A stretch of 64,000 nucleotides of DNA from positions 4,110,501-4,174,500 of the forward strand of contig NZ_BSDR01000001.1 in the NCBI RefSeq assembly GCF_027925305.1. Reading direction: 5' to 3'. A program made the translations under genes and the position numbers. This DNA is from Desulforhabdus amnigena. Lineage in GTDB: Bacteria; Desulfobacterota; Syntrophobacteria; Syntrophobacterales; Syntrophobacteraceae. The notes below the pieces were generated by a model. That model did not search any database, was not told where the DNA came from, and saw nothing but the letters and a program-made list of their open reading frames with translations. Position 1 is the first letter of the stretch. Every line of letters begins with the position of its first letter. This document shows, one piece after another, positions 1,404-55,511 of the stretch.

Positions 1404-1440
1404 AAAAAAAAACCTCCGAGTGTAGAACACACCCGGAGGC
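1404..1440 (-). terminator. Intrinsic terminator after aprA
   Basis: On the minus strand a stem with CCTCCG/CGGAGG arms and an inner GTG/CAC (one bulge, loop TTCTA) is followed by a run of nine T. It begins 20 nt after the aprA stop, so most aprBA transcripts should stop before qmoA. Confidence 0.85.
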
Positions 1441-1460
1441 CAATTATCCAAGGTTCGCTA

Positions 1461-3365: not shown

Positions 3366-3391
3366 ATCGTTACCTCCTTATGGGGTTGTTG

Positions 3392-3832
3392 TTACTTCAG
3401 GGTGGGAAGGGTATCCTGGCCAGTAGAAGCAGGTTCGGTACAGAGGATGGGGCTCTTGATGTCATCCGTACCCGTTGCATACCCTGCCAAAGGATTCGCC
3501 TTGCCTTCCGGGGTGGTCCGGATGGGGAACTTGAAGCGTTTTACCTGGCCGTTACGGAACTTAACGGTCCACATAATGTCTTCGGAACCACGGAGGGGCA
3601 CCACTGAAGCTCCCATAGGAACGAAGTCGGCGTAGGCGCGTACGTCAATGGCCTGCTGGGGACAGATCTTAACGCAATTGTAGCATTCCCAGCACATTTC
3701 GGGAGCGCGGTTGTAACCTTTCATTTTCTCTTTGTCGAGAACCATCAGGTCCTGGGGGCAGATGTACATGCATGCTGTCTTGTCTTGGCCTTTGCAGCCA
3801 TCGCACTTTTCAAGGATTACATAACTTGGCAT
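3392..3832 (-). CDS. aprB: Adenylylsulfate (APS) reductase, beta subunit
   Basis: Electron-transfer subunit of APS reductase, carrying two [4Fe-4S] clusters that feed the FAD of AprA. The ligands are visible: Cys10, 13, 21, 25 for one set and Cys47, 50, 53, 57 for the other. The rest of the 146 residues is the C-terminal tail that wraps around AprA in known structures. The start ATG at 3832 follows AGGAGG. It is first in the aprBA unit, behind a roughly 290 nt leader and a consensus promoter. Confidence 0.97.
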   Translation of the reverse strand: MPSYVILEKCDGCKGQDKTACMYICPQDLMVLDKEKMKGYNRAPEMCWECYNCVKICPQQAIDVRAYADFVPMGASVVPLRGSEDIMWTVKFRNGQVKRFKFPIRTTPEGKANPLAGYATGTDDIKSPILCTEPASTGQDTLPTLK

Positions 3833-4128
3833 AACTATCCTCCTAAGAGTTTATACTTTATCCTTAAGCCTATCGTTCACAATTGTCTGGAAGCCCTATC
3901 TGTGCCCTACACCTCCCTTCTTGAATCCGCACTCACCCTCTTGCCGAGAGCAAGCTGTTTGGTAGAAATGATCACTGCTGTGTTTTACTTATCTCTTCTT
4001 CACGTCCCAAGCGATTCCAACGTGAAGTTTGATCGCCAGTCTTAATGCTGTACCCCGAGCCTACCCTTCATGCCGGTAATTCTTTCCGAAAAAAAGGACC
4101 GCTTGCTTGTGCATTATATTGCAAGCTC

Positions 4129-4156
4129 ATTATAGGGACGGTCTTCCCATTGTCAA
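4129..4156 (-). promoter_or_regulatory. Consensus sigma-70 promoter for aprBA
   Basis: Read on the minus strand, TTGACA (4151-4156) and TATAAT (4129-4134) are both perfect hexamers with a 16 bp spacer. The start would be near 4121, giving aprBA a leader of about 290 nt (3833-4121). Apart from this promoter I see no gene in 3833-4383. Confidence 0.75.
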
Positions 4157-4383
4157 GGGAAAAATATGCAAATTTTCACAAGTGCAAAAACTGACATGCC
4201 GAAAGGGAGGAAAGAGACGATTTCGGCCGTATGACGGCCACCAAACGCACATGTCTTTATAAATCATGCGGGCGGATAATTAGCACGGATGAATCAAAAA
4301 TGCAAGGCCGGAGAAAATGAGATCAGGTGCCTTTTGTGCTTGAATCTACAGGCGCAGGAGCTGTTTTGGTTGTCGCTTCTCAT

Positions 4384-4435
4384 GAGAAAAAACGAACGAT
4401 ACCCGCTTTCCAGGGAATGGAAAGCGGGTATCGTT
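4384..4435 (-). terminator. Intrinsic terminator after sat
   Basis: A perfect 17 bp stem (AACGATACCCGCTTTCC and its complement, 4395-4435) is followed on the minus strand by a T run. It begins about 37 nt after the sat stop. Confidence 0.9.
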
Positions 4436-4471
4436 AAAACAAAGCCACCAGTGATGCAGGCAATGGCGAAC

Positions 4472-5665
4472 TTATTTTACGGTAGACTGGTAATAGGCCA
4501 TGAGAATCTTTGCCACTTCCGGACGGGAGAATTCCGGTGGAGGAGCCTGACCCTCAGAAAGCATGGCGCGTACTTTGGTTCCGGAGAGCAGAATGAAATC
4601 ATCTTTTGTATGGTCGGGAACGTCGCGCATCATGACAACGCGTCCGAGCTTCTTGGACCATGCGGTGTGGTCTGCCATATAGATTTCGATTTCGAGTGCA
4701 CCCTTGGGTACCTCTTCGGTGAAAATGGTTTGAGCGTCAAACGGGCCATAGTAGTCGCCGACGCCGGCATGGTCACGGCCGACGATGAAATGGGTACAGC
4801 CGCAATTCTGACGGAAGAGAGCATGCAACACGGCTTCGCGGGGACCGGCGTAGAGCATGTCGAAGCCGTAACCCGTGATCAGAACCGTATTGGGTTCAAA
4901 ATAGAGTTCCACCATCTTCCGGATGCATGCATCACGAACATCTGCAGGGATATCCCCTGGTTTCAGGCGGCCAAGCAGCATGTGGATGAGAATACCATCG
5001 GCCTTGACATCGTTGTAAGCCATGCGGCAGAGTTCTTCGTGGGCGCGGTGCATGGGGTTACGTGTCTGGAAGGCAACCACTTTTTCCCATCCGAGCTTCT
5101 GCATCTCTTCACGGATCTGGTAGGCGGTGCGGAAGGTTTCAGGGAAATCCAGCTCAAAATAGGAAAAGTTGAGCACTTTGATGGGGCCGGAAATGGCGAA
5201 ATTGCCCACTGTATTGAAAGCCTTCACTCCCGGGTGTTCCATATCGGTCGTGCGGTAGACTTTCTCTGTCATGAACTTCATCTGGTCGGCGGTGACTTCT
5301 TCGATATCTTCCACATCCATGATCGCCAGAACAGGCTGGCCGGCGACGTTGGGATCACGCAGAGCGATTCTTTTGGCACCTTTGATGCGAGCAGCCTCTT
5401 TTTTCACCATGTTCAAAATGGGAACAGGGAAAAAGATCCCCTTTGTCGTCATCATCTTTTCTGCACAGCTCATGGCATCCGCGACATTCATGAAGCCGGT
5501 CAGCGGGTTGAAATATCCGCCACCCAGCATGACGGCGTTTCCGGCTGCTGCAGAAGACACGACGATTGAAGGCAACTCAATCGCTTCCTTGGCCAATTCC
5601 GCGCGTATCTTCGGGTCCATAACGTAAAGCGGGTTCAACGTTTTCGATCCATGTGGCTTAATCAT
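4472..5665 (-). CDS. sat: Sulfate adenylyltransferase (ATP sulfurylase)
   Basis: Activates sulfate with ATP to APS and pyrophosphate, the first step of dissimilatory sulfate reduction; the product is the substrate of AprBA encoded next door. The 397-residue homo-oligomeric type is recognised by QTRNPMHRAH (200-209), the nucleotide-binding loop, and by GRDHAGVGDYYGP further on. There is no APS-kinase domain, consistent with a dissimilatory role. It has its own terminator and about 270 nt of untranslated sequence before a possible TTGACA -35 box (complement of 5962-5967), so it is probably transcribed separately from aprBA. Confidence 0.97.
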   Translation of the reverse strand: MIKPHGSKTLNPLYVMDPKIRAELAKEAIELPSIVVSSAAAGNAVMLGGGYFNPLTGFMNVADAMSCAEKMMTTKGIFFPVPILNMVKKEAARIKGAKRIALRDPNVAGQPVLAIMDVEDIEEVTADQMKFMTEKVYRTTDMEHPGVKAFNTVGNFAISGPIKVLNFSYFELDFPETFRTAYQIREEMQKLGWEKVVAFQTRNPMHRAHEELCRMAYNDVKADGILIHMLLGRLKPGDIPADVRDACIRKMVELYFEPNTVLITGYGFDMLYAGPREAVLHALFRQNCGCTHFIVGRDHAGVGDYYGPFDAQTIFTEEVPKGALEIEIYMADHTAWSKKLGRVVMMRDVPDHTKDDFILLSGTKVRAMLSEGQAPPPEFSRPEVAKILMAYYQSTVK

Positions 5666-6189
5666 AATTCTTTCCTCTCTAACCTGATTCCTGATTGATG
5701 AATTTCTCCGCTAACACGTGAAACAAAACACTCATGCCAGACATGCAGCGTGCGCCTTGAGGCACTTGACAACCCTTCTGAACGACCTGCAGTAGGCCCG
5801 CCGCCTTTGATAGCATCCCTTCCAGACAGCCAACATTCAAGCTGGAGACGGGCGTTCCCTCGTACCTGAAACGCTCATCATACCCGCTGGATGAGAATAC
5901 CTGAAAGTCCGCTTTTCTTCCGCACTTCAATCGTGCTAACTGTTATCAAATTTTCCATTGATGTCAAGCTGAAACTGTTATGTTTTTCACAAACACGAAC
6001 CGAGAACCCATTCGAATTTCTTATTTATGTTCTTTGGCTGTGATCTTTTTAATGGATTTTACGGGAAGAGATGGGGCATTTATAGCGAATTCCATCTCAA
6101 TAACTGAAAGATTTCAGAGAAAGAGAGATGTGACACCCACAAAAAGAGATTTGGGAAGCGCACGCATGTATTTCATGATAAACGTACCG
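5666..6189. other. Intergenic region between divergent sat and K+ channel
   Basis: No convincing gene. Short open frames lack ribosome sites and family resemblance. A minus-strand TTGACA at 5962-5967 may be the -35 box of sat, but no good -10 stands at the right distance. Confidence 0.5.
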
Positions 6190-6300
6190 GGCAGATCTGG
6201 ATGAGGTATGAGTGCCCCACTCGTTTGATTTCGAAGATCGGGGGATTGGATCTGCCTGCGCAGGGGTGAGGCTTTCCCGGTGATGTGTCCACCTTGCAGG
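6190..6300 (+). promoter_or_regulatory. Structured 5' leader of the K+ channel gene
   Basis: Two consecutive foldable blocks. GGCAGATC (6190-6197) pairs with GATCTGCC (6249-6256) around an inner GAGTG/CACTC hairpin, and CCTGC (6255-6259) pairs with GCAGG (6296-6300). I could not match it to a known riboswitch; the c-di-AMP class, common before K+ channels, was considered and not matched. Confidence 0.35.
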
Positions 6301-6333
6301 TTCATGTTACCCCATTACATCAGGTTGAGTTGA

Positions 6334-7347
6334 ATGGCGGAAAAGTACTGGATGGCGACAACCGGCAGGCATGTGATTGTACTCATTTTGCTTTCGGTGC
6401 TTCTCATTGGTTTTGGAACCATGGGATACATCATCATTGAAGGGTATCCCTTTGTAGATGCCCTATATATGACGATCATCACTCTCACGACGGTTGGCTT
6501 CGGAGAGGTAAAGCCGCTGGATCAGAATGGGCGGATTTTCACGATTTTGCTCATTTTCTTGGGAGCCGGTTTTGTGGCATACAATCTGGCTTATTTCAGC
6601 CAACTTTTTCTCGATGGCGATTGGCTTGAGATTTACCGGAGGCGTAAGTTGGAAAAAACGCTCGAACAACTCAAAAACCATTATATCATTTGTGGTTATG
6701 GCCAGATGGGGCAGATCATCGTGCGGGAACTGCAACGCTATAACGTGCCCGCTGTGGTCATAGAAAATGACGATTCACTCCTCCTTAAAATAAAGGAGAA
6801 GGGGATACTTTATTTGGCAGGGGATGCTACGGAGGAAGAAAATCTCCTTGCCGCCGGCATCATGAAAGCCAAGGGACTGGTATCTGTTGTGAGCAAGGAT
6901 ACGGACAATGTTTTCATTGTCCTTACTGCCCGAGACCTCAAAAAGGATTTGTATATCTTCAGTCGTGCCGGCACCCAGGGCAGTGAGAAAAGACTGTGTA
7001 AAGCCGGAGCCAACCGGGTGGTCTCCCCATTTGCCATCGGTGCTACCCGCATCGCCCAAAATATCCTGCGTCCCACCGTGACCGACTTTCTGGAACTGGC
7101 CCTCTCGGAGGAAGGGATGGAATTGAGCATGGAAGAATTTTTCCTCTCCGATCAGTCCACCCTGATCGGAAAAAAGCTCATCGATTCGGGAATTCGAAGC
7201 CAATATAATCTGATCGTTGTCGCCATCAAGCATCACGATGGCAAAATGATTTATAATCCCTCGCCTCGACAGACGCTTGAAGCCGGCGATATCCTTGTGA
7301 TGATCGGTCCGAGGGAAAACCTGCGTCGTTTTTCCAGCGAACTTTGA
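6334..7347 (+). CDS. RCK-domain potassium channel
   Basis: Two-transmembrane K+ channel of the Kch/MthK type. TM1 is near residues 12-35, followed by the pore loop with selectivity filter TVGFGE (53-58) and TM2 near 66-90. After a basic linker comes a TrkA-N/RCK domain with the nucleotide-binding motif GYGQMG (121-126), then a TrkA-C domain at the C-terminus. The filter has Phe and Glu where many channels have Tyr and Asp; this variant occurs in bacterial channels. The start at 6334 follows AGGTTGAG. It stands alone behind a structured leader. Confidence 0.9.
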   Translation: MAEKYWMATTGRHVIVLILLSVLLIGFGTMGYIIIEGYPFVDALYMTIITLTTVGFGEVKPLDQNGRIFTILLIFLGAGFVAYNLAYFSQLFLDGDWLEIYRRRKLEKTLEQLKNHYIICGYGQMGQIIVRELQRYNVPAVVIENDDSLLLKIKEKGILYLAGDATEEENLLAAGIMKAKGLVSVVSKDTDNVFIVLTARDLKKDLYIFSRAGTQGSEKRLCKAGANRVVSPFAIGATRIAQNILRPTVTDFLELALSEEGMELSMEEFFLSDQSTLIGKKLIDSGIRSQYNLIVVAIKHHDGKMIYNPSPRQTLEAGDILVMIGPRENLRRFSSEL

Positions 7348-7533
7348 TAATGCAGCCATCCTCCCTTGATTTACGGAAGATTCAAGCACTTCAAAAGATT
7401 TGACAAGAACAAATTGATTTCCTATAAACAAACAAATTTTGTAGGAAAAGAGACCTGATTCAATTTTAGGCCCTCGATCTACCCCCGTAAAGCGGGGCAT
7501 TCACTTTTTCAGCTTCATCTTATGGAGGGACAA

Positions 7534-8715
7534 ATGCAACAGGCGGTCATTGTCAGCGCTCTAAGGACTCCCGTGGGCAGTTTTGGAAAGTCTTTAAACT
7601 CCGTTCCTGCTGTAGAGCTTGGAGTAACGGCTCTCAAGGAATCTCTGCGGCGTATTCCATTGGAAGCCGAGCAAATCGATGAGGTCATTCTGGGCAATGT
7701 GCTTCAGGGAGGTTTAGGGCAGAATCCGGCACGGCAAGTAGCCATACACGCCGGCCTTCCAAAAGAAATTCCTGCTTTTACCATAAACAAGGTCTGCGCC
7801 TCCGGTCTGAAATCCGTTTTTCTGGCAGCACAGGCGGTCATGCTTGGAGATGCGGATGTTGTCGTTGCCGGGGGAATCGAAAACATGTCCCGGGCTCCTT
7901 ATGTCCTGAACGGTTGCCGCTGGGGACAGCGCATGGGAGACGGCAAGTTGATCGACTTGATGATTCTCGATGGTCTATGGGATGCCTTTAATGGATACCA
8001 TATGGGCATTACCGCCGAGAATGTATCCGCCAAGTTTGGAGTGAGCCGTCAGGAACAGGACGAGTTTGCTCTGGCGAGCCAGCAAAAAGCCGAAGCCGCG
8101 ATAAAGAGTGGAAGATTCAAAGACGAAATCGTGCCCGTCGAAATCCCCCAAAGAAAAGGAAAGCCCGTCATTTTTGATACGGACGAACATCCCCGTTTTG
8201 GAACTACTCTCGAGGCCTTGAACAAGCTTCCACCTGCCTTCAAGCCCGATGGGACGGTGACTGCGGGCAATGCTTCGGGGATCAATGACGCAGCCTGTAT
8301 CATCATCGTCATGTCGGAAAAGAAGGCGGCATCTCTGGGGCTGAAGCCGCTGGCGGCGATCAGAAGCTATGCATCCAGCGGTGTAGATCCTTCGATCATG
8401 GGGATTGGCCCGGTGCGAGCGAGCCAGAAAGCATTGGCTCGGGCGGGATGGTCTCCTCAGGATTTGGATCTGGTCGAAGCCAATGAGGCTTTTGCCGCTC
8501 AGGCCATCGTTGTGAACCGTGAACTGGGATGGGATCTTTCGAAAGTGAATGTCAATGGTGGGGCCATTGCCTTAGGGCATCCCATTGGTGCTTCCGGCGC
8601 CCGCATTCTGACGACGCTTCTGCACGAGATGCAGAAACGCGATGCCAAGAAGGGGTTGGCGACCCTTTGCATCGGCGGAGGGCAGGGATCGGCCATTGTC
8701 GTGGAACGTCCATAG
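7534..8715 (+). CDS. Acetyl-CoA acetyltransferase (thiolase)
   Basis: Condenses or cleaves acetoacetyl-CoA in short-chain acyl-CoA metabolism. The three catalytic elements are present: the nucleophilic Cys88 in VCASGLKS, the His in [14 protein letters not shown] near residue 345, and the C-terminal Cys in CIGGGQG. I start at ATG 7534 (393 aa) because GGAGGG sits 5 nt before it; an in-frame ATG at 7522 overlaps that site and has none of its own. First gene of a three-gene unit with crotonase and acyl-CoA dehydrogenase, so the likely role is butyrate-type oxidation or synthesis. No 3-hydroxyacyl-CoA dehydrogenase is nearby. Confidence 0.93.
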
Positions 8716-45081: not shown

Positions 45082-46602
45082 ATGTTCATGCTGAAAAAAA
45101 ACCTCGAAGAAAAAACGCCTTGTCGAAAAGCGGAAGTCTTGAAATACGCATCCCTCGTGGTCTTTGGGTTCTGCTGGATAACGGGCTGCACTGTGGGACC
45201 TAATTTCAAGCCTCCCAACCCGAGTCTCCCGGCGGCATGGAAGGGAGCGACGGCCGCCGATTCCGCTCGCATCAGCACAACCGTTCCGGAACCGGTGACT
45301 CTCGTGGAATGGTGGAAGAGCTTCAATGACAGTACGCTCTCTTCCCTTATGGAACGAGCCATGCGGTCCAACCTCGATGTTCGACAGGCAAGTGCCCGCA
45401 TCCGGCAGGCAAGAGCTTCCCGCGGGGTGGGGGCCGCTGCCTTGTGGCCGACCCTGGATGCCTCGGCCCTCTATCGCCGCAGCGGGAGTGGAGATTCCTC
45501 GTCGGGGGGCAACACCACTGACACTTCCTCGCTCATCAGAGGGGGAGGAGACCAGAACCTCTTCAGTGCGGGCCTGGATGCTGCCTGGGAGCTGGATTTT
45601 TTCGGCGGAACACGCCGAAACATCGAAGCGTTGGACGCTGACCTTCAGGCAACGGTTGAGGATCGTCGCGATGTGTTGGTGACCCTCCTGGCCGAGGTCG
45701 GAGTGAACTATATCGACCTTCGAGGCCTCCAAGGGCAGAAGGCCATTGCCGAGGAGAATCTTCGGGCACAGCAGAAGACGGCGGATATCACGCGGAGACG
45801 TTTTGAAGCGGGGTTTGTGACCGGCCTCGACGTAGCCAATGCGGCAGCCCAGACGGCCACCACAGCATCCCGGATACCGGTCCTCGAAGCGAGCATTCAG
45901 AGTACCATTTACAATCTCAGCGTCCTGCTGGGTGAACCCCCGACCGCCCTGGCGCAGGAGCTCCAGGAGAAAGCCCCCATCCCGGTGACACCGCCGCAAA
46001 TCCCCATAGGGCTGCCGTCGGACCTGATTCGCCGTCGCCCGGACATCCGCCGCGTGGAAGCGCAGATACACGCGGCCACAGCCCGCATCGGAGTTGCCAC
46101 GGCCGACCTTTACCCGAAGTTCTCTTTGACCGGTAATCTCCAGTTTTCTGCCGATGATTTTGCCTCCGTCGCGAACTGGAACAACCGATCCTGGTCTGTC
46201 GGGCCGAATGTACTGTGGCCGATTTTCGATGCGGGGCGCATCCGCTGGAACATCGAGGTCCAGAAGGCGGTCGAGGAACAGACGCTTCTCGCTTATGAAC
46301 AGACAGTCCTTTCGGCGCTGAAGGATGTGGAAACGTCGCTGGTGGCCTATGCCAGGGAACAGGAAAACCTCAAGCTGCTGGGAGAGGCGGTCATGAACAA
46401 CCGCAAGGCTGTGGACCTGTCCATGGAACTCTATACCTCCGGACAGACGGACTTTCTGAATGTCATCACGGCACAGCAGTCCCTCTTCGTTTCAGAAGAA
46501 GCTCAGATTCTAAGCCGCCGCAACCTGGCCATTGATGGAGTCTCTCTCTACAAGGCTTTGGGTGGGGGATGGGAAAAAGGTGAGGAGGGGATGGTTCGAT
46601 AG
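45082..46602 (+). CDS. TolC/NodT-type outer membrane efflux lipoprotein
   Basis: 506 aa. Lipobox ITGC (Cys36) followed by TVGPNFKPP, the typical start of mature NodT-family proteins. Two OEP domains with long helical repeats follow. It forms the outer-membrane tunnel for the MacA-MacB pump encoded immediately upstream (18 nt gap), completing a tripartite exporter. Confidence 0.92.
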   Translation: MFMLKKNLEEKTPCRKAEVLKYASLVVFGFCWITGCTVGPNFKPPNPSLPAAWKGATAADSARISTTVPEPVTLVEWWKSFNDSTLSSLMERAMRSNLDVRQASARIRQARASRGVGAAALWPTLDASALYRRSGSGDSSSGGNTTDTSSLIRGGGDQNLFSAGLDAAWELDFFGGTRRNIEALDADLQATVEDRRDVLVTLLAEVGVNYIDLRGLQGQKAIAEENLRAQQKTADITRRRFEAGFVTGLDVANAAAQTATTASRIPVLEASIQSTIYNLSVLLGEPPTALAQELQEKAPIPVTPPQIPIGLPSDLIRRRPDIRRVEAQIHAATARIGVATADLYPKFSLTGNLQFSADDFASVANWNNRSWSVGPNVLWPIFDAGRIRWNIEVQKAVEEQTLLAYEQTVLSALKDVETSLVAYAREQENLKLLGEAVMNNRKAVDLSMELYTSGQTDFLNVITAQQSLFVSEEAQILSRRNLAIDGVSLYKALGGGWEKGEEGMVR

Positions 46603-46623
46603 ATACAAACAAGGAGCACCGCC

Positions 46624-46689
46624 ATGGAAGATAGCGCCGCCGGAGAAGAGATGAAATCACATTATGAAAAAGAGAGGAGCGTCCCGTGA
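46624..46689 (+). CDS. 21-codon ORF, possible gene remnant
   Basis: ATG 46624 follows AAGGAG by 7-8 nt and the frame closes at TGA 46687-46689, exactly where the transposase-derived sequence begins on the other strand. It may be the surviving 5' end of a sixth operon gene cut by the insertion. Confidence 0.3.
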   Translation: MEDSAAGEEMKSHYEKERSVP

Positions 46690-46705
46690 AATTTGTGGCG
46701 CCATG

Positions 46706-46978
46706 CTTGATCACTTCAGCATCACTCAACTTCCGCAGCTTGCCAACAACCAGAAGGGCAACCATCATTCGCAGCGACTTCCCGGTCCGTCCCTTTCCTT
46801 TGCGGTAAAAACCGGCCAGCCGCTCAATGACCTTCTGCCACGGAATGATCCGGCGCATGATCACCAACTCGTTTAAAAAATCTCTCACGTTCTGTCTGAC
46901 CCACTCTTCGGAAAATGCTTCTTTAAAGATTCCGAGTGAAGGAAGAAAGGATCTGGGGAAGACCTTGAAGGGGAAACC
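46706..46978 (-). pseudogene. IS5-like transposase N-terminal remnant
   Basis: Read on the minus strand, the frame from about 46978 gives FKVFPRSFLPS, then VRDFLNELVIMRRIIPW, then GRTGKSLRMMVALLVVGKL and KLSDAEVI, which resembles the N-terminus of IS5-family transposases. After codon ...EVIK (46706) the similarity stops, and no DDE catalytic domain remains. Confidence 0.65.
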
Positions 46979-46983
46979 ATCTA

Positions 46984-47063
46984 GTTCGGCAGATGAAAAA
47001 CAGGTCTGCCGAACCTGACCGCGCTTAGCTTTCTAAGCGTTTCATTCGGCAAGGTTCGGCAGA
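46984..47063. repeat. GTTCGGCAGA repeats and hairpin
   Basis: GTTCGGCAGA (46984-46993), its inverse TCTGCCGAAC (47005-47014), and a third copy in GGTTCGGCAGA (47053-47063). A CTTAG/CTAAG hairpin sits between. Probably the end of the transposase remnant or recombination debris next to the att site. Confidence 0.55.
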
Positions 47064-47112
47064 AATTTGGCAAAAGATGGCTTAAGAGCCGACTTTTCTA
47101 ATGATTTCAAGC

Positions 47113-47130
47113 ATGGTGCCGAAGGCCGGA
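47113..47130. repeat. att core repeat, tRNA-distal
   Basis: 18 bp identical to the 3' end of tRNA-Leu(GAG) at 55425-55442; identity breaks at the next base (T here, C in the tRNA). Confidence 0.88.
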
Positions 47131-47204
47131 TTCACTAAGAAGGCCTCAAGTTATTGAAATCATTAGATCCGACATGCTCAAAAATGCGGGTTTTTGACCC
47201 CAAT

Positions 47205-47223
47205 CCGCAACCTATACGCAACC
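47205..47223 (+). promoter_or_regulatory. Putative arm-type integrase sites (left)
   Basis: CCGCAACC (47205-47212) and CGCAACC (47217-47223), 75 bp inside the left core and in the same orientation as three copies at the right end. 47131-47376 holds no gene besides these and a CCCGG/CCGGG hairpin near 47311. Confidence 0.6.
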
Positions 47224-47376
47224 AAATTCAAGAATTTGCATTGAACATGAAAAGCGATTAGAATACGCACAATTTCCAAGGGATAGGGACGGATTAGCTA
47301 CCCTTCTCGAAAAGCCCGGTTTCCTGGCCGGGTTTCCCTTGGATTCCTCCCAGGGCGCTTACAGGAGGCGCAAGAA

Positions 47377-48111
47377 ATGAAGTGGATCAGCGGGCGGGAG
47401 TTACATGGAAGGTTTCAGGGCGACATATCAAAAATCATTGAGCCTGTAAGGCAAGGGGTTATCACTCCCTATCTTCTTGCCGAACCGATGACATGGAGTG
47501 ATCCCGATGAACATCAGGGGGCGCATAGACTCCTGCCCACGCGTTCAGATAGGTCGAAATACGACACGCTTCAATGGCTGAGATTCAGGCGGGCAAAATT
47601 GAGAGAATGGCTGAATCAAAGCGACGATGAGATTCGTGCGGCTGATGAATGGATGGAGAGGATACCGATCAGAGATCCAGTCCAACGGAGGGCCAGAAAA
47701 CAGAAGGAACTTGCTGACGTTAACCGGGACATAGAGAAGTTTGAGAACGAGCTTGAACCCGCGAAGATATGGAGGATCTTAAAGCAATCGGATTTGTCCC
47801 CGGCGAAAGAAGAGCAACTAAAGGCGCTTCTCCTCGAAAGCTATTACTTGACGGAAGAGGTTGAAAAAATAGATCGGGATAAAAAGCCCCCACAAAAGGC
47901 ACGGAAACGTGATGCAAAGGCGGCCGCAAACGAGGAAGTCCGGGAATTTGCCAAGAAAAAGTATCAAGAAGGGTTCAAGATGGAGATCATAGTGGACTTA
48001 CCGGAGATCCGTAAAATTTACAAAAAGCATCAAGTGGAGATTCCATCCTTATCGTATCTCAGGAAACTGATTCAAGGGCCGGGCAAACCTGGCCGACCCC
48101 GCAAAGAATAG
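47377..48111 (+). CDS. Hypothetical element protein with coiled-coil region
   Basis: 244 aa, good AGGAGG site. The N-terminus (ISGRELHGRFQGDISKIIEPVRQG) may form a small helical DNA-binding unit. The middle is charged and helical (DVNRDIEKFENELE), and the C-terminus is basic and ends PGRPRKE, an AT-hook-like tail. It resembles phage or plasmid accessory proteins but I recognise no family. First gene inside the left end, followed by a terminator. Confidence 0.75.
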   Translation: MKWISGRELHGRFQGDISKIIEPVRQGVITPYLLAEPMTWSDPDEHQGAHRLLPTRSDRSKYDTLQWLRFRRAKLREWLNQSDDEIRAADEWMERIPIRDPVQRRARKQKELADVNRDIEKFENELEPAKIWRILKQSDLSPAKEEQLKALLLESYYLTEEVEKIDRDKKPPQKARKRDAKAAANEEVREFAKKKYQEGFKMEIIVDLPEIRKIYKKHQVEIPSLSYLRKLIQGPGKPGRPRKE

Positions 48112-48145
48112 ACCCCCACCGAATCAAAAAAAACTGGATGATTTG

Positions 48146-48178
48146 GCCGCATGGAGTGAAACCATAGCGGCTTTTTTT
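48146..48178 (+). terminator. Intrinsic terminator
   Basis: Stem GCCGC-TGG with CCA-GCGGC followed by seven T, 34 nt after the 244-aa gene. A direct repeat AAAAAAACTGGATGATTT flanks it on both sides (near 48127 and 48193). Confidence 0.85.
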
Positions 48179-48313
48179 GTTGAAATGATTCAGAAAAAAA
48201 CTGGATGATTTCATAAAATCCAGATTTTCCGAATAAATCCAATTTTATATTAAAAATCAATTGCTTATGCTTGCACCATCTTGATTAACCCTTACGACTA
48301 AGGAGCTTTCAAA

Positions 48314-48550
48314 ATGGTGCATAAGAATCCTGCCGAACGAGAATACCTCGATAAGAAGCAGCTCGCCGACTACTTCGGCATGAGCGAGCGGACCATCAAT
48401 CATTTCCTGAAAAAAGGGCTTCCCCATTTCCGGGTAGGACGGAAGGCACTCCGTTTCAAACGGACGGAAGCGGACGTGTGGTTTGAGCGGTTCAGGGCGG
48501 ACGAAGCAAACGCGGTTGACAAGCTGGTTGCTGAGGTAATGGGCCAATGA
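48314..48550 (+). CDS. Excisionase/AlpA-like helix-turn-helix protein
   Basis: 78 aa. YLDKKQLADYFGMSERTINHFL is a MerR-like winged-helix (HTH_17) motif, followed by the wing GLPHFRVGRKALRFKR. This is the usual small DNA-binding protein of integrative elements, acting as excisionase or activator. ATG 48314 follows AAGGAG. The stop overlaps the start of the primase-helicase gene (ATGA). Confidence 0.85.
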   Translation: MVHKNPAEREYLDKKQLADYFGMSERTINHFLKKGLPHFRVGRKALRFKRTEADVWFERFRADEANAVDKLVAEVMGQ

Positions 48551-51471
48551 GCGAAATTTCCCTCTCCGTCATTACCGCAACGAAACCCGAACGACTCTCT
48601 AAGGGCTTCAAATACGTCAGCGGAGGCGTTTTACAGAAGATCCCAGGCGGGCAGCTTGTCGAAGGTATCATTGAGCTTCGCGGCGTTTCCGTTTCTGGCT
48701 TTGCCTCTCTCCTGAAATCTCTTCACCCCGGCCAGGCGCTTACATACGGGGTTTCTGCACATGACAGGGCGCGTATCGTCACTGCTGAGGCATTAACAAA
48801 GACATCGGACGACGGCGCATTGCCGACCATCGCACGGACCCGTGAACATCTTCATTGGCCGGAAGGCGCTGGCATTTTGATGCTCGACTACGATCCCCAG
48901 CCCGGCAAAGAACCGTTGACCCCCGACGAATTGCGACGGACGTTTTACAGTGTCTGCCCCGAGTTGAAGACGGCGCCGCACGTTTGGACCGCTTCGGCAT
49001 CAAGCTGTATTTGCCGGACGGACAACGGCGAAGAGTTGCGCGGGATCATGGGCCAGCGAATCTACATCTTCGTTCAGGATGCTTCCGACATCCCACGGGC
49101 CGGGCAAGTCTTTTTCGATCGGCTATGTCTTGCCGGGTACGATTTCTCTGTCATTTCAAAGAGCGGGGCATTCTTTTGGCGAACATTGATTGATGGCGCA
49201 GTCCATCAACCTGAACGGCTCGATTTCGCGGGCGGGGCGGCTTGCGGGCCAGGAATCGAACAGCGGCGGCCGGACCCAGTGATTTACAACCCGGATGGGG
49301 CTTTCCTCGATACTCGCACGGCGCTTCCCGACCTGACACCGGATGAAAAGAAACGGCTTGCAGAACTCAAACGGGCGGCACGGGCGGCGGCAAAACCGGA
49401 AGCGGACCAGGCGCGGGAGCTGTGGGTTGAAGACCGCCTTGCACAAATGGTCAAGGGGAATCCCGATCTTGACCGGGAACGGACCCGGGACGAACTGACA
49501 CGGGCTGTCAAAGAGCGGAGGCTCTTCGGAGACTTCCAGATCTGCACCGAAAAGCACGGCGTGCTGACCGTCGGACAGCTCCTCGACAACCCCAAAAAGT
49601 ACCACGGCATCCGCTGTCATGACCCGCTTGAACCGGACTATGGGAACGACCCGCGAATTGCCCAGGCGAATCTTCGGACGGCCGGGAAACCGTATATATG
49701 GAGCTTTGCTCATGGGGGGCAGCGATACACCCTCCATCGTGCTGTTACAACCGTTCGGATAGAGGGCGGCGAGCTGCAATCCATCACCGGGCGATGCCTG
49801 GAGCTCATGCGGCTTGATGGGACCATTTACGAGCGTGGAGGGGAGCTTGTCCGACTCGCCGAGGGCAAGCCCAATCCATTGAGCCCGGAATGGTTGCGCT
49901 GGTATTTGACCGGGCTGATTCGCTTCGAGAAATACGATGCCCGCGCCGGGGAGTGGCTGACGAAAGATTGCCCGGTAGACCTGGCTAAAACGGTCCTGGC
50001 GATGTCTGGATCGTGGGGGCTTCCGAGGCTGACCGGGATTATTACCGCACCGACAATCACCCCCGAGGGGCGCGTTATTGACCAGGAAGGACACGATGAA
50101 GAAACGGGCCTTTACCTGGACTTCCCGGACCCGGAAGGACGCTGGCGGGCCATTCCCGAGAAGCCGACCGAAACCGAGCTTAAAGCGGCGGCTGAAACCG
50201 TTTGGAAGCCGTTTGAACTGTTTCCGTTTGTCGATCCAGTTGCACGCGGCTCGATGCTCGCGGGGATTCTCACGGCGACTACGCGGCCGCTTCTTCCCAC
50301 GGCGCCGGGCTGTCTTTTAACCGCACCATCGGCCGGTTCCGGCAAGACCTTGCTGGCGCTTTGCCTGGCGGCATTGGCCGGGCAGGAACCCGAGGTATAC
50401 CCACGGGCGAAGGATGATGACGAGCTGCGCAAGCGGTTTTTGGCAGCATTTCGTGGCGGTGCGGGCTGCATCATTTTCGACAATCTATCCGGCCATTTTG
50501 AATCAGACACACTCTGTGCGGTCTCAACTACAGGGACCATCACCGACCGCATTTTAGGTGAATCCAGTACACTGACCGTGCCAGCGAACGCACTGATAGT
50601 GCTTACCGGCAACAATGTTTCCCTCGTCGGCGATTTGGGGCGGCGCTTCATTTCCGTTCGAATCGACCCTCAAATGCAAACGCCTTGGCAGCGGAGCTTT
50701 CCCTTCGATCCCCTGGAAGATTGCCGGACGCATCGCCTTGAGTTGATTCGGGCCGGGCTGATGCTTCTCAAGGGCTTTCTGGCAAGTGGGGCGCCGAAGC
50801 CACAAGACAGGCTCGCGAGTTTTGAAGCGTGGAGCGACTTCATACGCGGCTGCGTGTGCTGGATCGGAAAGAACGGATGGCTGGACGTGATGGACCCGGT
50901 TGCCTCGATCACGGAGAATTTCGAAGCGGACCCGGAAACGAGCAAACTCGCGGCGTTATTGGACGCATGGCACACGAATTTCGGGAAAGACGGAAAGACC
51001 GTCGCGCAAGTTATCCGAACGGCTGAAGCGGACAAAGACTCCGAACTTTGGGCCGCGTTGGATGAAATCGCGGGCGAGCGGGGCGTAATCAATTCCCGGC
51101 GATTGGGCCGATGGATCGAAAAACACCAAGGGCGGATAGTTGAAGGCTTGCGCTTCTCCAAAGAGGGAACCCGGCAAAAAATCGGAGTGTGGAAGGTGGG
51201 TTTGGTAGATTTAGTGGGTGTCGCTAAACCCTATACGGAAAACTGTCACGTGACATATTTATATAATGGGGGAAAACACCCCCACCAAACACCTAAAACC
51301 CACCTTTCAACCTGTGCCGACTGCCTGAACTTCACGGCGAACCGATCCGATCCCAAGAACAAACCGGGCACCTGTCCCGAAGCACCGGACGGTAAATTCA
51401 CCAAGATGCCGACCGATGGGGGCGATTGTCCCAAATTCAAGGCCGGGACACATAAAAGGGAGGCGGTTTAA
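48547..51471 (+). CDS. Primase-helicase replication protein
   Basis: 974 aa. The N-terminal 230 residues look like an archaeo-eukaryotic-type primase: ILMLDYDP (about 110-117) gives the DxD metal pair, followed by SASSC and QRIYIFVQDASD. A middle linker leads to an ATPase/helicase: Walker A APSAGSGKT near 595, Walker B CIIFDN near 640, sensor LIVLTGNN, and GRRF arginine finger. The C-terminus has CADC and two further cysteines, a possible zinc site. Such proteins start replication of satellites and plasmids. The primase call is by motif only. Confidence 0.8.
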   Translation: MSEISLSVITATKPERLSKGFKYVSGGVLQKIPGGQLVEGIIELRGVSVSGFASLLKSLHPGQALTYGVSAHDRARIVTAEALTKTSDDGALPTIARTREHLHWPEGAGILMLDYDPQPGKEPLTPDELRRTFYSVCPELKTAPHVWTASASSCICRTDNGEELRGIMGQRIYIFVQDASDIPRAGQVFFDRLCLAGYDFSVISKSGAFFWRTLIDGAVHQPERLDFAGGAACGPGIEQRRPDPVIYNPDGAFLDTRTALPDLTPDEKKRLAELKRAARAAAKPEADQARELWVEDRLAQMVKGNPDLDRERTRDELTRAVKERRLFGDFQICTEKHGVLTVGQLLDNPKKYHGIRCHDPLEPDYGNDPRIAQANLRTAGKPYIWSFAHGGQRYTLHRAVTTVRIEGGELQSITGRCLELMRLDGTIYERGGELVRLAEGKPNPLSPEWLRWYLTGLIRFEKYDARAGEWLTKDCPVDLAKTVLAMSGSWGLPRLTGIITAPTITPEGRVIDQEGHDEETGLYLDFPDPEGRWRAIPEKPTETELKAAAETVWKPFELFPFVDPVARGSMLAGILTATTRPLLPTAPGCLLTAPSAGSGKTLLALCLAALAGQEPEVYPRAKDDDELRKRFLAAFRGGAGCIIFDNLSGHFESDTLCAVSTTGTITDRILGESSTLTVPANALIVLTGNNVSLVGDLGRRFISVRIDPQMQTPWQRSFPFDPLEDCRTHRLELIRAGLMLLKGFLASGAPKPQDRLASFEAWSDFIRGCVCWIGKNGWLDVMDPVASITENFEADPETSKLAALLDAWHTNFGKDGKTVAQVIRTAEADKDSELWAALDEIAGERGVINSRRLGRWIEKHQGRIVEGLRFSKEGTRQKIGVWKVGLVDLVGVAKPYTENCHVTYLYNGGKHPHQTPKTHLSTCADCLNFTANRSDPKNKPGTCPEAPDGKFTKMPTDGGDCPKFKAGTHKREAV

Positions 51472-51932
51472 TGAAAGTCTTATGCGACACCAGGGAACAA
51501 CGGCCGTTTTCCTTCAAACGCTTTCCGGGGACCATCGTGGAGCGGACCGGGTTGAAGACCGGCGACTACTCGCTTCACGGATATCAGGATCGTGTGGCGA
51601 TTGAACGGAAGGAACTGAACGACCTGATCCAATGTCTCATGCCTCCAAACAGGGCGCGCTTTGAGCGGGAGCTTTGTCGGGCGCAATCACTGGAATGCTT
51701 CGCGGTTGTGGTGGAGGCGAGCATGGACGACGTGCGCCAGGGCCGATACATGAGCCAGATGAGGCCGCACAGCGTCCTTCAATCAATCGCGGCGTTTTCG
51801 GTGAGGTATCGCGTCCCCTTCATTTGGTGCGGCAGCCGGGCCGGGGCGGAATACTTGACCTTTTCCCTCCTGGAGAAGTTTCAAGCCGAGGACGAAAAGC
51901 GCACCGGAAGACTTGAGAAAGGAACGGCATGA
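51471..51932 (+). CDS. ERCC4-type nuclease
   Basis: 153 aa. XPF/ERCC4 catalytic residues: Asp6 with DTRE (6-9), GDYS (31-34) and ERKELNDL (45-52, the ERKxxxD signature). No HhH or helicase domain, so a stand-alone nuclease acting on branched or flapped DNA. It begins at the stop of the primase-helicase and is overlapped by the next gene, consistent with a replication or resolution role. Confidence 0.88.
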   Translation: MKVLCDTREQRPFSFKRFPGTIVERTGLKTGDYSLHGYQDRVAIERKELNDLIQCLMPPNRARFERELCRAQSLECFAVVVEASMDDVRQGRYMSQMRPHSVLQSIAAFSVRYRVPFIWCGSRAGAEYLTFSLLEKFQAEDEKRTGRLEKGTA

Positions 51933-52090
51933 AGAATCATTCAAAAGCTGGATGTGTTTGGGGGCGATACGGGCACCTGTGGGGCGCTCCGTTTTATCGA
52001 GACGGGGAACCTATCACATGCCTGGTATGTCAAGCCGTGATAGCGAAGCGGACCCGGCAGGGCAGAGGAAAGCGCAAGGGCAAAAAGTAA
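51929..52090 (+). CDS. 53-aa basic protein with CLVC motif
   Basis: ATG 51929 overlaps the nuclease stop (ATGA) and follows AAGGAA. The product has a CxxC (CLVC) and ends with a basic tail KRTRQGRGKRKGKK, consistent with a small nucleic-acid-binding protein. No family recognised. Confidence 0.65.
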   Translation: MKNHSKAGCVWGRYGHLWGAPFYRDGEPITCLVCQAVIAKRTRQGRGKRKGKK

Positions 52091-52168
52091 ACCCTGGCAG
52101 GCGGCGGACCTCCCAGGGCACGTGTAAAAGCTCAACGAGAATTTAGCACATAGAAGGGAACATAGACA

Positions 52169-52522
52169 ATGAGCGTAATCGAATTTCCCGTAAAACCTTG
52201 GTACGAAAAACTGTCATGGGAACGGGCTCAGAACGCCGCGCGGCTTGTGGGCTACGACGCTGAAGAGGCTCTTGAATCGTACCACGGCGGCGGCGGGATG
52301 AACTTCATACGACCGGACGACCGGCAGTTTTACATGACATCCCTTTTGACTCATATCTTCTGCATGATGGAAGAGGACGACCCGCCGACCAGGTGGGAGG
52401 ATTTGCCCGAGGAGGTGCGGGACTTCTACACGGAAGCCTCGCGGCTGGAGGCGGACGACCAGCGGCGAAGAGACCATGCGACATCCGATAGCTTTAAGCG
52501 CCATTTCGGGATGAAAATCTAA
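52169..52522 (+). CDS. Hypothetical element protein, 117 aa
   Basis: Acidic and probably helical, starting MSVIEFPVKPWYEKLSWERAQ. No motif recognised. AAGGGAA precedes the start, and codon use resembles the neighbours. An inverted repeat (GGGAGGCGG with CCGTCTCCC, 52529-52557) follows the stop. Confidence 0.7.
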   Translation: MSVIEFPVKPWYEKLSWERAQNAARLVGYDAEEALESYHGGGGMNFIRPDDRQFYMTSLLTHIFCMMEEDDPPTRWEDLPEEVRDFYTEASRLEADDQRRRDHATSDSFKRHFGMKI

Positions 52523-52572
52523 CTCAGATCGGGAGGCGGTTTTGTTGCCGTCTCCCAGGAAAGGGACGCCAT

Positions 52573-52959
52573 ATGAATTATGTGATCCGAAAACCAGCAC
52601 AAACCAAGCCGAGGGATGCAAAACCAGTGTTTCAACAAAAGCCAGCGGAGACGATCCCGCGCGTTGACCCTCCCACCAAGGAAGCCAGAAAGTCCGAGAC
52701 GCCGAAAGAGCAAGCCAAGCCGAAACGAAAGCCGTTCTCTGAGCTGTGCGGGCAAGACCTCACGTTTCAAACGCGGATAGGGACCATTGTGGAAGGGCAC
52801 GTAACCGGCACGGAAAGCGGCTATTTCCTGCTTAAAAACGTTCGAATCGTAGGGAAGGACCATGAAGCCCGTGTGCCCTGGACGTGGCTGAATCAGGCGG
52901 TTGTGGCGCATATTCACCCGGCAGGGGCGGCGGTGACGAGAAGGGAGGCGGACGCCTAA
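52573..52959 (+). CDS. Possible Sm/Hfq-like protein with disordered N-terminus
   Basis: 128 aa. The first 55 residues are Pro/Lys-rich and probably disordered. Residues about 58-117 (LTFQTRIGTIVEGHVTGTES, then YFLLKN, then VPWTWLNQAVVAHIHP) follow the Sm-fold strand pattern, with G-V-E-G and LLKN at positions resembling Hfq. This is a pattern-level resemblance and needs a structure prediction. Confidence 0.55.
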   Translation: MNYVIRKPAQTKPRDAKPVFQQKPAETIPRVDPPTKEARKSETPKEQAKPKRKPFSELCGQDLTFQTRIGTIVEGHVTGTESGYFLLKNVRIVGKDHEARVPWTWLNQAVVAHIHPAGAAVTRREADA

Positions 52960-53062
52960 CAGATGACGCTTTTTGTAACAAAATTGTATCATTTCTATAT
53001 GCTTTTTGATGTCAAAGATTTGACGATCCATTTGAAAACATTGCTCAATCATGAGGACACCC

Positions 53063-53272
53063 ATGGCTATACGATTGAAAACACTCGATGATGTGCGCCG
53101 ATACCTGGCAAATCTGATAAACCGGGTTGAACGGGGCGAAGTGGACCCGGCTATTTCCGGGCGCCTTGGATACTTGTGCAATATCCTGTCAGGGGCAATC
53201 AAGGACGGCGAGCTCGAACGGCGGCTTGAACAGCTTGAGGAGCTTGTGGAAAAGCAGGAGGCGAACCGATGA
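53063..53272 (+). CDS. Small helical element protein, 69 aa
   Basis: ATG 53063 follows GAGG; an upstream in-frame ATG at 53051 is less likely. Contains IRLKTLDDVRRYLANLINRV and a C-terminal charged coiled coil (ELERRLEQLEELVEKQ). Overlaps the next gene by four bases. Unknown family. Confidence 0.7.
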   Translation: MAIRLKTLDDVRRYLANLINRVERGEVDPAISGRLGYLCNILSGAIKDGELERRLEQLEELVEKQEANR

Positions 53273-53547
53273 ACTTGAAAGACCGGCTCAAGCGGCTTGA
53301 ACGGAAGATGACCGATGAAATGGAGGAATTCACACTGGATGATGGAACAACGGCGCGACTGCCGGCGGGGGCGGGCCTGGAAGCGTTTTGCGCGGTCATG
53401 GATAACGTCATGGCAAGCGGGACCGGGGCGCCACTTAAGCCCGTGCCCTACCGGGATGTTTTCCTGAAAGTATCCACTGAAAAGACACTCGACCTCGGGA
53501 CGGCGATCCGGGGACTCCTTGAGACTGAGGACGACGAGAACGAGTAA
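53269..53547 (+). CDS. Hypothetical element protein, 92 aa
   Basis: Starts MNLKDRLKRLERKMTDEMEEF, a short basic-to-acidic helix, and ends acidic. Coupled to the previous gene (ATGA). Followed by a terminator. Unknown family. Confidence 0.7.
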   Translation: MNLKDRLKRLERKMTDEMEEFTLDDGTTARLPAGAGLEAFCAVMDNVMASGTGAPLKPVPYRDVFLKVSTEKTLDLGTAIRGLLETEDDENE

Positions 53548-53548
53548 T

Positions 53549-53577
53549 CCCGGTCAGGAGGGGACCGGGTGATTTTC
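53549..53577 (+). terminator. Intrinsic terminator ending the element operon
   Basis: CCCGGTC and GACCGGG around a purine loop, then GATTTTC. It starts next to the stop of the 92-aa gene. Confidence 0.75.
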
Positions 53578-53650
53578 TGGACGTGTTTAGATATGGACCG
53601 ACCCGAGAAAGTGGATTCTAGGGGCAAAATTCGAGGCCGTTTTTTCACCG

Positions 53651-53869
53651 TCAAGGTTCTTCTTCAATGAGATCCACAATGGAAACCTCAAGGGCTTTCG
53701 CAATGCTGTATATTGACCGAACGGAGCATGTGTTTATCCGTTCATCACAGGCCTTTGTGATGGTTTGAAGTGAGACACCGGACATTTTTTGAAGCTCGCG
53801 GACCGTGACCTTTTTTTCTTTCATGACGCTCTTGAGTTTGCTTTTCAAATGCTCCCCTTTCGAAATCAA
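53651..53869 (-). CDS. XRE-family repressor
   Basis: 72 aa. A helix-turn-helix of Cro/C1 type (VTVRELQKMSGVSLQTITKACDE) and a C-terminal helix ending in acidic residues. Divergent from the int unit, with a palindromic operator between them, the usual layout of a lysogeny-type switch. The start is uncertain: TTG 53848 and ATG at codon 16 are alternatives. Confidence 0.8.
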   Translation of the reverse strand: MISKGEHLKSKLKSVMKEKKVTVRELQKMSGVSLQTITKACDERINTCSVRSIYSIAKALEVSIVDLIEEEP

Positions 53870-53881
53870 ATTTCTATTTTT

Positions 53882-53942
53882 TTAGAACATTTCCCTTGAC
53901 GTGTCAATGTGACCAGGCTATGTTCTATAAAACTAGAACATA
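53882..53942 (+). promoter_or_regulatory. Promoter with palindromic operator
   Basis: TTGACG (53896-53901) and TATGTT (53919-53924) with a 17 bp spacer. The -10 lies within the perfect palindrome TATGTTCTA/TAGAACATA (53919-53927 and 53934-53942), and a third TAGAACAT is at 53883-53890. It faces right toward the leader peptide, RHH gene and int. Binding by the XRE repressor is inferred. Confidence 0.75.
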
Positions 53943-53976
53943 TTAACAACCTGCTACCCACAAAGGAGAGAACGAC

Positions 53977-54015
53977 ATGACGAACCAAGAATTTAATGAA
54001 ACAGCGGCTTCATAG
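53977..54015 (+). CDS. 12-residue leader peptide
   Basis: Encodes MTNQEFNETAAS then TAG. AAAGGAG stands 8 nt before ATG. It is 35 nt after the operator and directly before a terminator, so it may be an attenuator peptide for the RHH-int unit. Confidence 0.5.
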   Translation: MTNQEFNETAAS

Positions 54016-54027
54016 GAAAGCGATCAT

Positions 54028-54057
54028 AAGCCCTTCGGGAAACCGGGGGCTTTTTTT
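54028..54057 (+). terminator. Terminator between leader peptide and RHH-int genes
   Basis: AAGCCC pairs with GGGCTT, with inner CC/GG pairs, followed by seven T. It would block readthrough to the RHH gene and integrase unless bypassed. Confidence 0.8.
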
Positions 54058-54097
54058 GGGCAAGCAAAGATAACGTTGATTATCAGGAGGGCACGCC

Positions 54098-54249
54098 ATG
54101 AAAAAGAATTTCCTGCTTCGGGACATCCCGCCGGCACTCCATCAGGAATTGAAACTTGCGGCGGTGCGGCAACAAATCACCATGCGGGAGTTGATCTTGC
54201 GGCTTATGGCCGATCACGTTGAAAAGAGGGGGGCGGCACATGGGCGTTA
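54098..54249 (+). CDS. Small ribbon-helix-helix-like protein, 50 aa
   Basis: FLLRDIPPALHQELKLAA followed by a turn and MRELILRLMADHVEK is the Arc/MetJ-type pattern (strand, helix, helix). AGGAGG precedes ATG 54098 by 8 nt. The stop lies 10 nt inside the integrase gene, so the two are coupled. Probably a regulator of int or excision. Confidence 0.75.
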
Positions 54250-55394
54250 AGGTGCGGGAGAAATCGGCAGGAAGCGGCGTTTGGTGGCTGTTCATCGACC
54301 ACAACGGACAACGGAAGGCGAAGAAGGTCGGCACGGACAAAAAGCTTGCACTGGAAGCGGCGAAGAAGATCGAGGCCAAGTTGACGTTGGGGGATATGGG
54401 ACTGAAAGACCCCGAGAAGAAAGCCCCCACGTTCAAAGAAGCCGCTGATCTTTGGTTGCATGGATACATTAAGCCCTTGAGACGGGAAACGACATTTGAG
54501 CGTTATTCCGACATGCTTAAGCGGCACGTATTGCCAACACTGGGGAGCACTCCCATAAACGAGATTGCGCGGAAGGATGTCAGGGAGCTTCTTCTTTCCG
54601 TTCGGGCAAAGGGGCTTTCAAAGGCGAGCGTGTGCCTTGTCCGTGACGTCATGAGCGGCGTTTTCAACCATGCCATTGACGATGAGATCATTGAAGTGAA
54701 TCCGGTTCTCGGGGTGGTGAAACGACTCAACCTTTCCAGGGACAAGCAGGAGGAAGTTGAACCCCTCACAAAAGAGGAAGTCGGTCTTTTCCTTGAGACA
54801 TGCAAGCAGAACCGGCCGGAATACTATCCGCTTTTCTTGACTGCTTTCCGAACGGGGATGAGACTCGGGGAGCTCTTGGGCCTCAAGTGGGGGGATGTCG
54901 ATTGGAACGGGAAATTTATCCGTGTGAGCAGGAGTGCCAAGCGTGGCAAGATAACCCCCACGAAGACGGGAAAGAACCGGCGGGTGGATATGTCGGACCA
55001 GTTGATGAACGTCTTGAAAGGGCTTCAAACGCAACGGAAGCGGGAAGCGTTGAAGAAAGGGCACGGCGTCGCTGATGGATTCATCTTTCTATCCAGGGAG
55101 GATGAAATCCTTTCACAGAACACTGTCAGGAACGTTTTTAAAGGTATTCTTCGCAAGGCAGGACTCCGGGATATCCGGTTACACGAAACCCGGCACACGT
55201 TCGCTTCCCTGCTTCTGACTGACGGTCAAAGCCCGGTTTACGTGAAGGAACAGCTCGGTCATTCTTCCATTCAGATGACCGTGGACATTTACGGGCACCT
55301 GATCCCGAGCAGCAACCGGGATGCCGTAAACCGATTGGACGAAACGCAACCATCCGCAACCCAGCCGCAACCAGCCAAAATAGAAAAAGCGTAA
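54240..55394 (+). CDS. Tyrosine recombinase (integrase)
   Basis: 384 aa from ATG 54240. N-terminal arm-binding/SAM-like region, then the catalytic domain with Arg208 (RTGMRLGE), His315 and Arg318 (HETRH), His341 (LGHSS) and nucleophile Tyr351 (DIYGHL). All five key residues are present, so it should be active. It lies beside tRNA-Leu(GAG), its integration target. Its last codons contain three CGCAACC repeats, probably arm-type sites. The frame is open 7 codons upstream; ATG 54240 has the better ribosome site. Confidence 0.95.
   Translation: MGVKVREKSAGSGVWWLFIDHNGQRKAKKVGTDKKLALEAAKKIEAKLTLGDMGLKDPEKKAPTFKEAADLWLHGYIKPLRRETTFERYSDMLKRHVLPTLGSTPINEIARKDVRELLLSVRAKGLSKASVCLVRDVMSGVFNHAIDDEIIEVNPVLGVVKRLNLSRDKQEEVEPLTKEEVGLFLETCKQNRPEYYPLFLTAFRTGMRLGELLGLKWGDVDWNGKFIRVSRSAKRGKITPTKTGKNRRVDMSDQLMNVLKGLQTQRKREALKKGHGVADGFIFLSREDEILSQNTVRNVFKGILRKAGLRDIRLHETRHTFASLLLTDGQSPVYVKEQLGHSSIQMTVDIYGHLIPSSNRDAVNRLDETQPSATQPQPAKIEKA
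55345..55372 (+). promoter_or_regulatory. Putative arm-type integrase sites (right)
   Basis: CGCAACC (55345-55351), CCGCAACC (55354-55361) and CCGCAACC (55365-55372), spaced 10-11 bp, inside the end of int and 53 bp from the core. Same orientation as the two left copies. Confidence 0.6.
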
Positions 55395-55424
55395 CCCGTT
55401 AAGATTACGCCTCATTTCATACGT

Positions 55425-55442
55425 ATGGTGCCGAAGGCCGGA
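55425..55442. repeat. att core repeat within tRNA-Leu
   Basis: 18 bp shared with 47113-47130; covers the acceptor 3' strand, CCA and part of the T arm of tRNA-Leu. Confidence 0.88.
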
Positions 55443-55511
55443 CTCGAACCGGCACGAGTTTCCCCACCACCCCCTCAAGATGGCGTGTCTACCAAGTTCC
55501 ACCACTTCGGC
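55426..55511 (-). tRNA. tRNA-Leu (GAG)
   Basis: 86 nt with encoded CCA. On the minus strand the acceptor is GCCGAAG/CTTCGGC, the anticodon stem CCATC/GGTGG holds loop TTGAGGG (anticodon GAG), a long class II variable arm follows, and the T arm contains GGTTCGAGTCC. It lies just downstream of secG, as leuU does in E. coli, and is the integration site of the element. Confidence 0.96.

Follow-up and report, generated by a model that had tools for sequence, protein, structure and literature searches.

An 8.3-kb element inserted at tRNA-Leu(GAG) in Desulforhabdus amnigena is probably a functional, integrated phage satellite of the PICI-like kind and of an undescribed lineage. We analyzed it in a window of 64,000 nucleotides, by which we mean the whole stretch of DNA under study. 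Its integrative mobility is well supported by sequence comparison; its relatives and its architecture favor packaging by a helper phage as the best inference. Because those relatives carry one or two phage packaging genes, travel in the particles of other viruses is the most likely mode of transfer. We also advance a broader and more tentative proposal: Desulforhabdus and its relatives may share a distinct satellite family whose basis is a Pri-Rep-like PrimPol, frequently joined by an ERCC4 nuclease. In this family the target would evolve by exchange of the core-binding and catalytic part of the integrase alone, against an unchanged arm-binding domain and unchanged arm sites, and arm motifs with one and the same spacing would be used by integrases at tRNA-Leu, -Ala, -Arg, and -Met genes.

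The limits of the element are sharp. An exact direct repeat of 18 of 18 nucleotides (20 of 21 over a longer stretch) joins its distal end to the 3′ end of the tRNA, with 8312 bp from start to start. The initial annotation had placed the ends at these 18-bp repeats, and its coordinates stand without correction; its worry that the repeat was a chance match does not hold, since in 1000 simulated regions (first-order Markov) exact matches to the tRNA reached at most 14 nt. Just inside both ends lie five CGCAACC motifs spaced 10 to 11 bp apart, which we read as putative arm-type integrase sites. No other copy occurs on the plus strand of the element, and simulated sequences had 0 or 1 near the ends. 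The copy of the element in Desulforhabdus sp. TSK has them at the same places; the right-end motifs are also present in a copy in genome G358, whose left end has one exact motif and a degenerate one. The features of the element are as follows.

47113–47130, no strand: distal attachment core repeat, 18/18 against the tRNA 3′ end
47206–47223, plus strand: left arm-type sites, two CGCAACC at 47206 and 47217, 11 bp apart, present in the TSK copy too
47377–48111, plus strand: orf244; in relatives, a different gene of similar size stands here
48127–48144 and 48194–48211, plus strand: two identical 18-nt repeats, AAAAAAACTGGATGATTT, upstream of the HTH and PrimPol genes
48314–48550, plus strand: AlpA-like, excisionase-type HTH protein (PF12728, 3.5e-6)
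48547–51471, plus strand: PrimPol with SF3-type helicase, 974 aa (phrog_16593, 1.4e-56; phrog_29234, 7e-89)
51471–51932, plus strand: ERCC4-family nuclease (PF02732, 1.4e-11; phrog_3490, 6.9e-25)
51929–52090, plus strand: small protein of 53 aa, 84% identical to the TSK copy over 42 residues
52169–52522, plus strand: orf117, helical; within the taxonomic order, seen in the two Desulforhabdus copies only
52573–52959, plus strand: orf128, no counterpart found in the TSK copy
53051–53272, plus strand: orf73, resembling the C-terminal part of DUF5681
53269–53547, plus strand: orf92, coupled to orf73
53651–53869, minus strand: C1/Cro-type repressor, divergent from the integrase side (PF13443, 1.2e-11)
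53871–53888 (one mismatch) and 53922–53939 (perfect), no strand: operator-like palindromes, GTTCTA-N6-TAGAAC
54098–54250, plus strand: ribbon-helix-helix (HicB-like) protein of 50 aa, overlapping int (PF05534, 1.3e-4)
54240–55394, plus strand: tyrosine integrase, 384 aa (PF00589, 1e-32)
55345–55372, plus strand: right arm-type sites, three CGCAACC at 55345, 55355, and 55366, within the 3′ end of int
55425–55442, no strand: tRNA-proximal attachment core repeat
55426–55511, minus strand: tRNA-Leu(GAG), the insertion target, intact, beside secG-tpiA

The integrase gene abuts the tRNA and is oriented toward it; its product has Phage_integrase and SAM-like domains. Upstream of the repressor, the perfect palindrome GTTCTATAAAACTAGAAC and its one-mismatch copy flank a promoter-like site (53896–53924), and the repeat pair AAAAAAACTGGATGATTT is a possible operator or set of iterons. 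The ribbon-helix-helix protein is a candidate excision or regulatory factor. The match of the AlpA-type protein is weak, at 27.6 bits against a cut-off of 27. Pfam and PHROGs searches of the element's ORFs recovered no virion family, besides HTH cross-matches to TerS, and no relaxase; the family searches thus agree with the earlier reading of an integrase and replication module without structural or transfer genes. The suggestion that the small genes serve in defence found no backing: PADLOC returned weak HTH matches only. For orf117, a low-confidence single-sequence fold model had no viral match at E<=0.001.

In G008, a member of another genus of the same family, the secG-adjacent tRNA-Leu(GAG) runs uninterrupted into a flank like that on the left of the element; over 168 alignment columns this flank is 90.5% identical to window positions 46966–47133. 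We take this to be an empty site, with the qualification that the match covers little flanking sequence, including an inverted repeat that may be mobile in its own right. The initial annotation had also raised the objection that relatives without int might keep the region; G008, which has no int at this site, lacks the region entirely. A site-specific integrase, direct repeats at a known target, and a relative's empty site, which together define an integrative mobile element, are all present here. Exact core repeats, conserved arm sites, the empty site in G008, and relatives in other tRNA-Leu genes are thus the grounds for integrative mobility. The same comparison for the TSK copy located its flank in the genome of the window, without any tRNA nearby.

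The secG-tRNA-Leu(GAG) site is, judging from its occupants, an insertion hot spot. In TSK it carries the remnant of an integrase end and, after it, a DUF4007/DndC-like island; in G007 it carries an integrase remnant, and in G002 a distantly related integrase. The TSK island (L134) comprises multiple genes and, named from sequence, is probably a phosphorothioation-type defence system. Several repeats and fragments lie around the insertion points. A large inverted repeat, TCTGCCGAACC...GGTTCGGCAGA, occupies the left flank (window 47005–47063, and L097); its conservation in another genus, at about 90%, exceeds that of neighboring genes, and it is perhaps a mobile repeat itself. Directly left of the element, a weak DUF772 transposase match below the cut-off (46466–46888, minus strand) overlaps the end of an efflux gene and is likely a fragment. 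A stretch of 28–33 nt in the distal flank of the TSK element (L011, 13620–13652) has at least 14 dispersed matches in the genome of the window.

The initial annotation proposed a search for the gene set at tRNA-Leu elsewhere, and such elements exist: five elements in four other genomes share the replication module and sit at tRNA-Leu, and one more genome has it at tRNA-Ser. The TSK copy, from the same genus, sits in tRNA-Leu(CAA) with an 18-nt repeat and an 83% identical primase. The G025 relative (primase 52%) is bounded by a 64-nt repeat in tRNA-Leu(UAA), and its integrase, a different one, lies at the opposite end. G358, of another family, holds two repeat-bounded elements (primase 48–49%): one in tRNA-Leu(GAG) with an integrase 62% identical to that of the window, the other in tRNA-Leu(UAA) with a G025-type integrase. 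The relatives in G467 and G245 adjoin tRNA-Leu(CAA) and tRNA-Ser(UGA), respectively.

Comparison with the TSK copy suggests how targets change: the insertion site seems to have been changed by swapping only part of the integrase. The two integrases are 98% identical over residues 1–50, 42.5% over 51–170, and 53% over 171–384 (about 49% for the whole remainder after residue 50); the 91% block that they share at the DNA level ends at 54389, which is codon 50 of int. The core of the window integrase is more like the G358 one (52% over 51–170, 66.5% over 171–384), whereas the primase is 83% identical to TSK and 49% to G358. Arm sites and residues 1–50 are thus kept and the remainder and the tRNA-Leu target differ, which points to retargeting by a core and catalytic-domain swap. 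In a tree of 24 integrase cores, 10 entries (9 beside tRNA-Leu, 1 beside tRNA-Ala) form one clade (100/99), and the TSK core groups with the tRNA-Ala entry (86/89), apart from the window core. Double or triple CGCAACC arms also occur at the 3′ ends of int genes beside tRNA-Leu, -Ala, -Arg, and -Met, although not all; the arm module thus persists as the core module and the target change. The natural chimera, with its junction at codon 50, the same arms, and a different tRNA-Leu, offers a clean and testable model for the origin of new insertion sites of tyrosine integrases.

Three of the relatives carry the genes that point to phage particles. The G467 relative has a TerS (PF03592, 6.8e-22); G358 copy 1 has a TerL (phrog_2, 1.1e-28), preceded by an HTH protein where TerS would stand; and G358 copy 2 has a prohead protease (phrog_4523, 6e-41; PF04586, 4.6e-6). 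No full virion gene set was seen in the relatives checked, only one or two isolated packaging genes in several. Such isolated TerL or protease genes are also what half-decayed prophages display, and the PrimPol occurs in viral contigs of 34–42 kb directly before TerS-like, TerL-like, and portal-like ORFs, as read from sequence. (Contig scans with a single protein and a narrow alignment returned nothing; a broader alignment retrieved these contigs.) The element could then be what is left of a temperate prophage after loss of its structural genes, with integrase, regulation, and replication retained. We regard this as unlikely. Compact units of about 8–13 kb that share the replication module and have intact repeats are found across several genomes and families, in various tRNA genes and with various integrases; the exchange inside int points to activity; and the gene set is intact, most of it under purifying selection. 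Between the window and TSK copies, dN/dS is about 0.16 for the primase, 0.19 for the ERCC4 gene, and 0.04 for orf73; it lies below 0.45 in six of the seven compared genes outside int, which argues against simple decay. The exception, orf92, has a dN/dS of about 1.2, based on few changes, and shows no hint of purifying selection. Some relatives of the element could themselves be shrunken prophages.

The PrimPol-helicase links the element to satellites by fold. The 974-aa protein has no Pfam family at E<=1. Its predicted model (pLDDT 80.9) gave Foldseek matches to primase-helicases of large DNA viruses, and a second fold comparison placed PriRep1 (7pds; Z 13.8, rmsd 8.2, 347 aligned) and the SaPI5 primase-helicase (7ola; Z 12.9, rmsd 6.2, 330 aligned) at the top. 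The match spans mainly residues 400–890, and the primase half rests on the PHROG matches and an LDYD motif in the sequence. The modeled fold thus appears closest to the SaPI primase-helicases, a shared fold that does not amount to family membership; sequences of solved structures gave no real match, and fold comparison alone gave one.

Homologues of the PrimPol, 32–34% identical over most of the protein, also reside on plasmids, some of them small, so phage packaging does not follow from its presence. Separately, a related PrimPol lies beside an integrase in Camelimonas lactis (L026, 6872–20988), and the genes downstream of it, type I restriction-modification-like by sequence, are possible defence cargo. 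An IME identified by its relaxase gene is rejected for want of one among the element ORFs; an IME or CIME with an oriT and no relaxase, moved by helper conjugation, or an integrating plasmid, with replication as post-excision maintenance, is a possible but improbable account: 8 of the 25 plasmids with homologues type as mobilizable and 1 as conjugative, and no packaging gene is recognized in the window copy, but relaxase and transfer genes are absent from the element and the relatives bear phage packaging genes, for which conjugation has no use.

The phage satellite reading, one of two offered by the initial annotation, therefore fares unevenly across its parts: mobility is borne out; the satellite part is supported indirectly, by the TerS, TerL, and protease genes of relatives and the SaPI-like fold; and the window copy has no recognized TerS in Pfam or PHROGs, nor a recognized cos or pac. 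One candidate is orf73, which matches one DUF5681 protein at E 4.4e-6. DUF5681 is presumably linked to terminases. In G245, a DUF5681 gene follows the ERCC4 gene, roughly at the TerS position of G467. We rejected DUF5681 as proof of TerS, since copies lie among housekeeping genes in relatives; a TerS-like role for orf73 is conjecture, and a search for phage homologues of orf73 and orf92 found none that convinced. A small element-like locus (L084 in G021, 1429–7760) combines an int, a HicB-like gene, a different replication-like gene, and an orf73 homologue; orf73 thus travels with different replication modules.

The life cycle that we envisage runs as follows. A helper phage would relieve the C1-type repression; the integrase, with the HTH or ribbon-helix-helix factor, would release an excised circle; and the PrimPol-helicase, with the ERCC4 nuclease, would replicate it. 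Helper particles would then take up the DNA by means of a satellite TerS-like function (candidates orf73 and orf92) or a helper-type cos or pac site, and the element would integrate at tRNA-Leu of the next host. Retargeting of related copies would occur when the core-binding and catalytic part of the integrase is replaced and the 50-residue arm-binding part and arm sites are kept. Two related prophage-like loci in the genome of the window (G000) could be helpers, at about 3.191–3.225 Mb (L125, L127) and 0.140–0.174 Mb (L128, L126); both have TerL, portal, or head genes, and each has an ERCC4 nuclease nearby, 35–38% identical to that of the element. No DNA common to the element and either prophage was detectable.

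Among known systems, the PICI layout comprises an integrase, an AlpA-type regulator, and a primase-replication gene in one main direction, without virion or lysis genes (PMC6092414). The element has this layout, with a weak AlpA-type match and a primase of a different sequence family, and the predicted fold of its PrimPol is of the Pri-Rep type. Like Gram-negative PICIs and SaPIs, it is small, with int at one end, an AlpA-type HTH, a Pri-Rep-fold primase-helicase, genes mostly in one direction, no virion genes, and TerS in some relatives; unlike them, it has a primase of another sequence family without a Pfam match, a C1-type repressor turned toward the integrase side, and an extra ERCC4 nuclease. 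PICMI are minimalist satellites of Vibrionaceae, inserted in fis, with a DUF3987 and DUF5906 primase and PF12728 as one of two AlpA models in their definition (PMC10803314). The element shares with them a small set of int, AlpA-type HTH, primase, a small int-overlapping gene, and few others, but it sits in tRNA-Leu(GAG) and not fis, in other hosts, and its primase is not of the DUF3987/DUF5906 type; we do not place it among them. Nor is it a cfPICI: some relatives have TerL, TerS, or a prohead protease, but these are one or two genes and not a head module, and the window copy has none, its HTH cross-matches aside, and no capsid and packaging set of its own. The marine Tycheposons, likened here by description only, are tRNA-targeted tyrosine-recombinase elements proposed to include satellites. 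They are also mentioned in PMC11389934. If packaging is confirmed, PICI-like satellites would extend to sulfate-reducing and syntrophic bacteria, for which text searches of a limited open-access library returned no paper, and a SaPI-like primase-helicase fold would recur in a different sequence family. P4-type satellites are marked by Psu, Sid, and Delta, among other genes; such families are absent among the element's ORFs, and a P4-like assignment was rejected.
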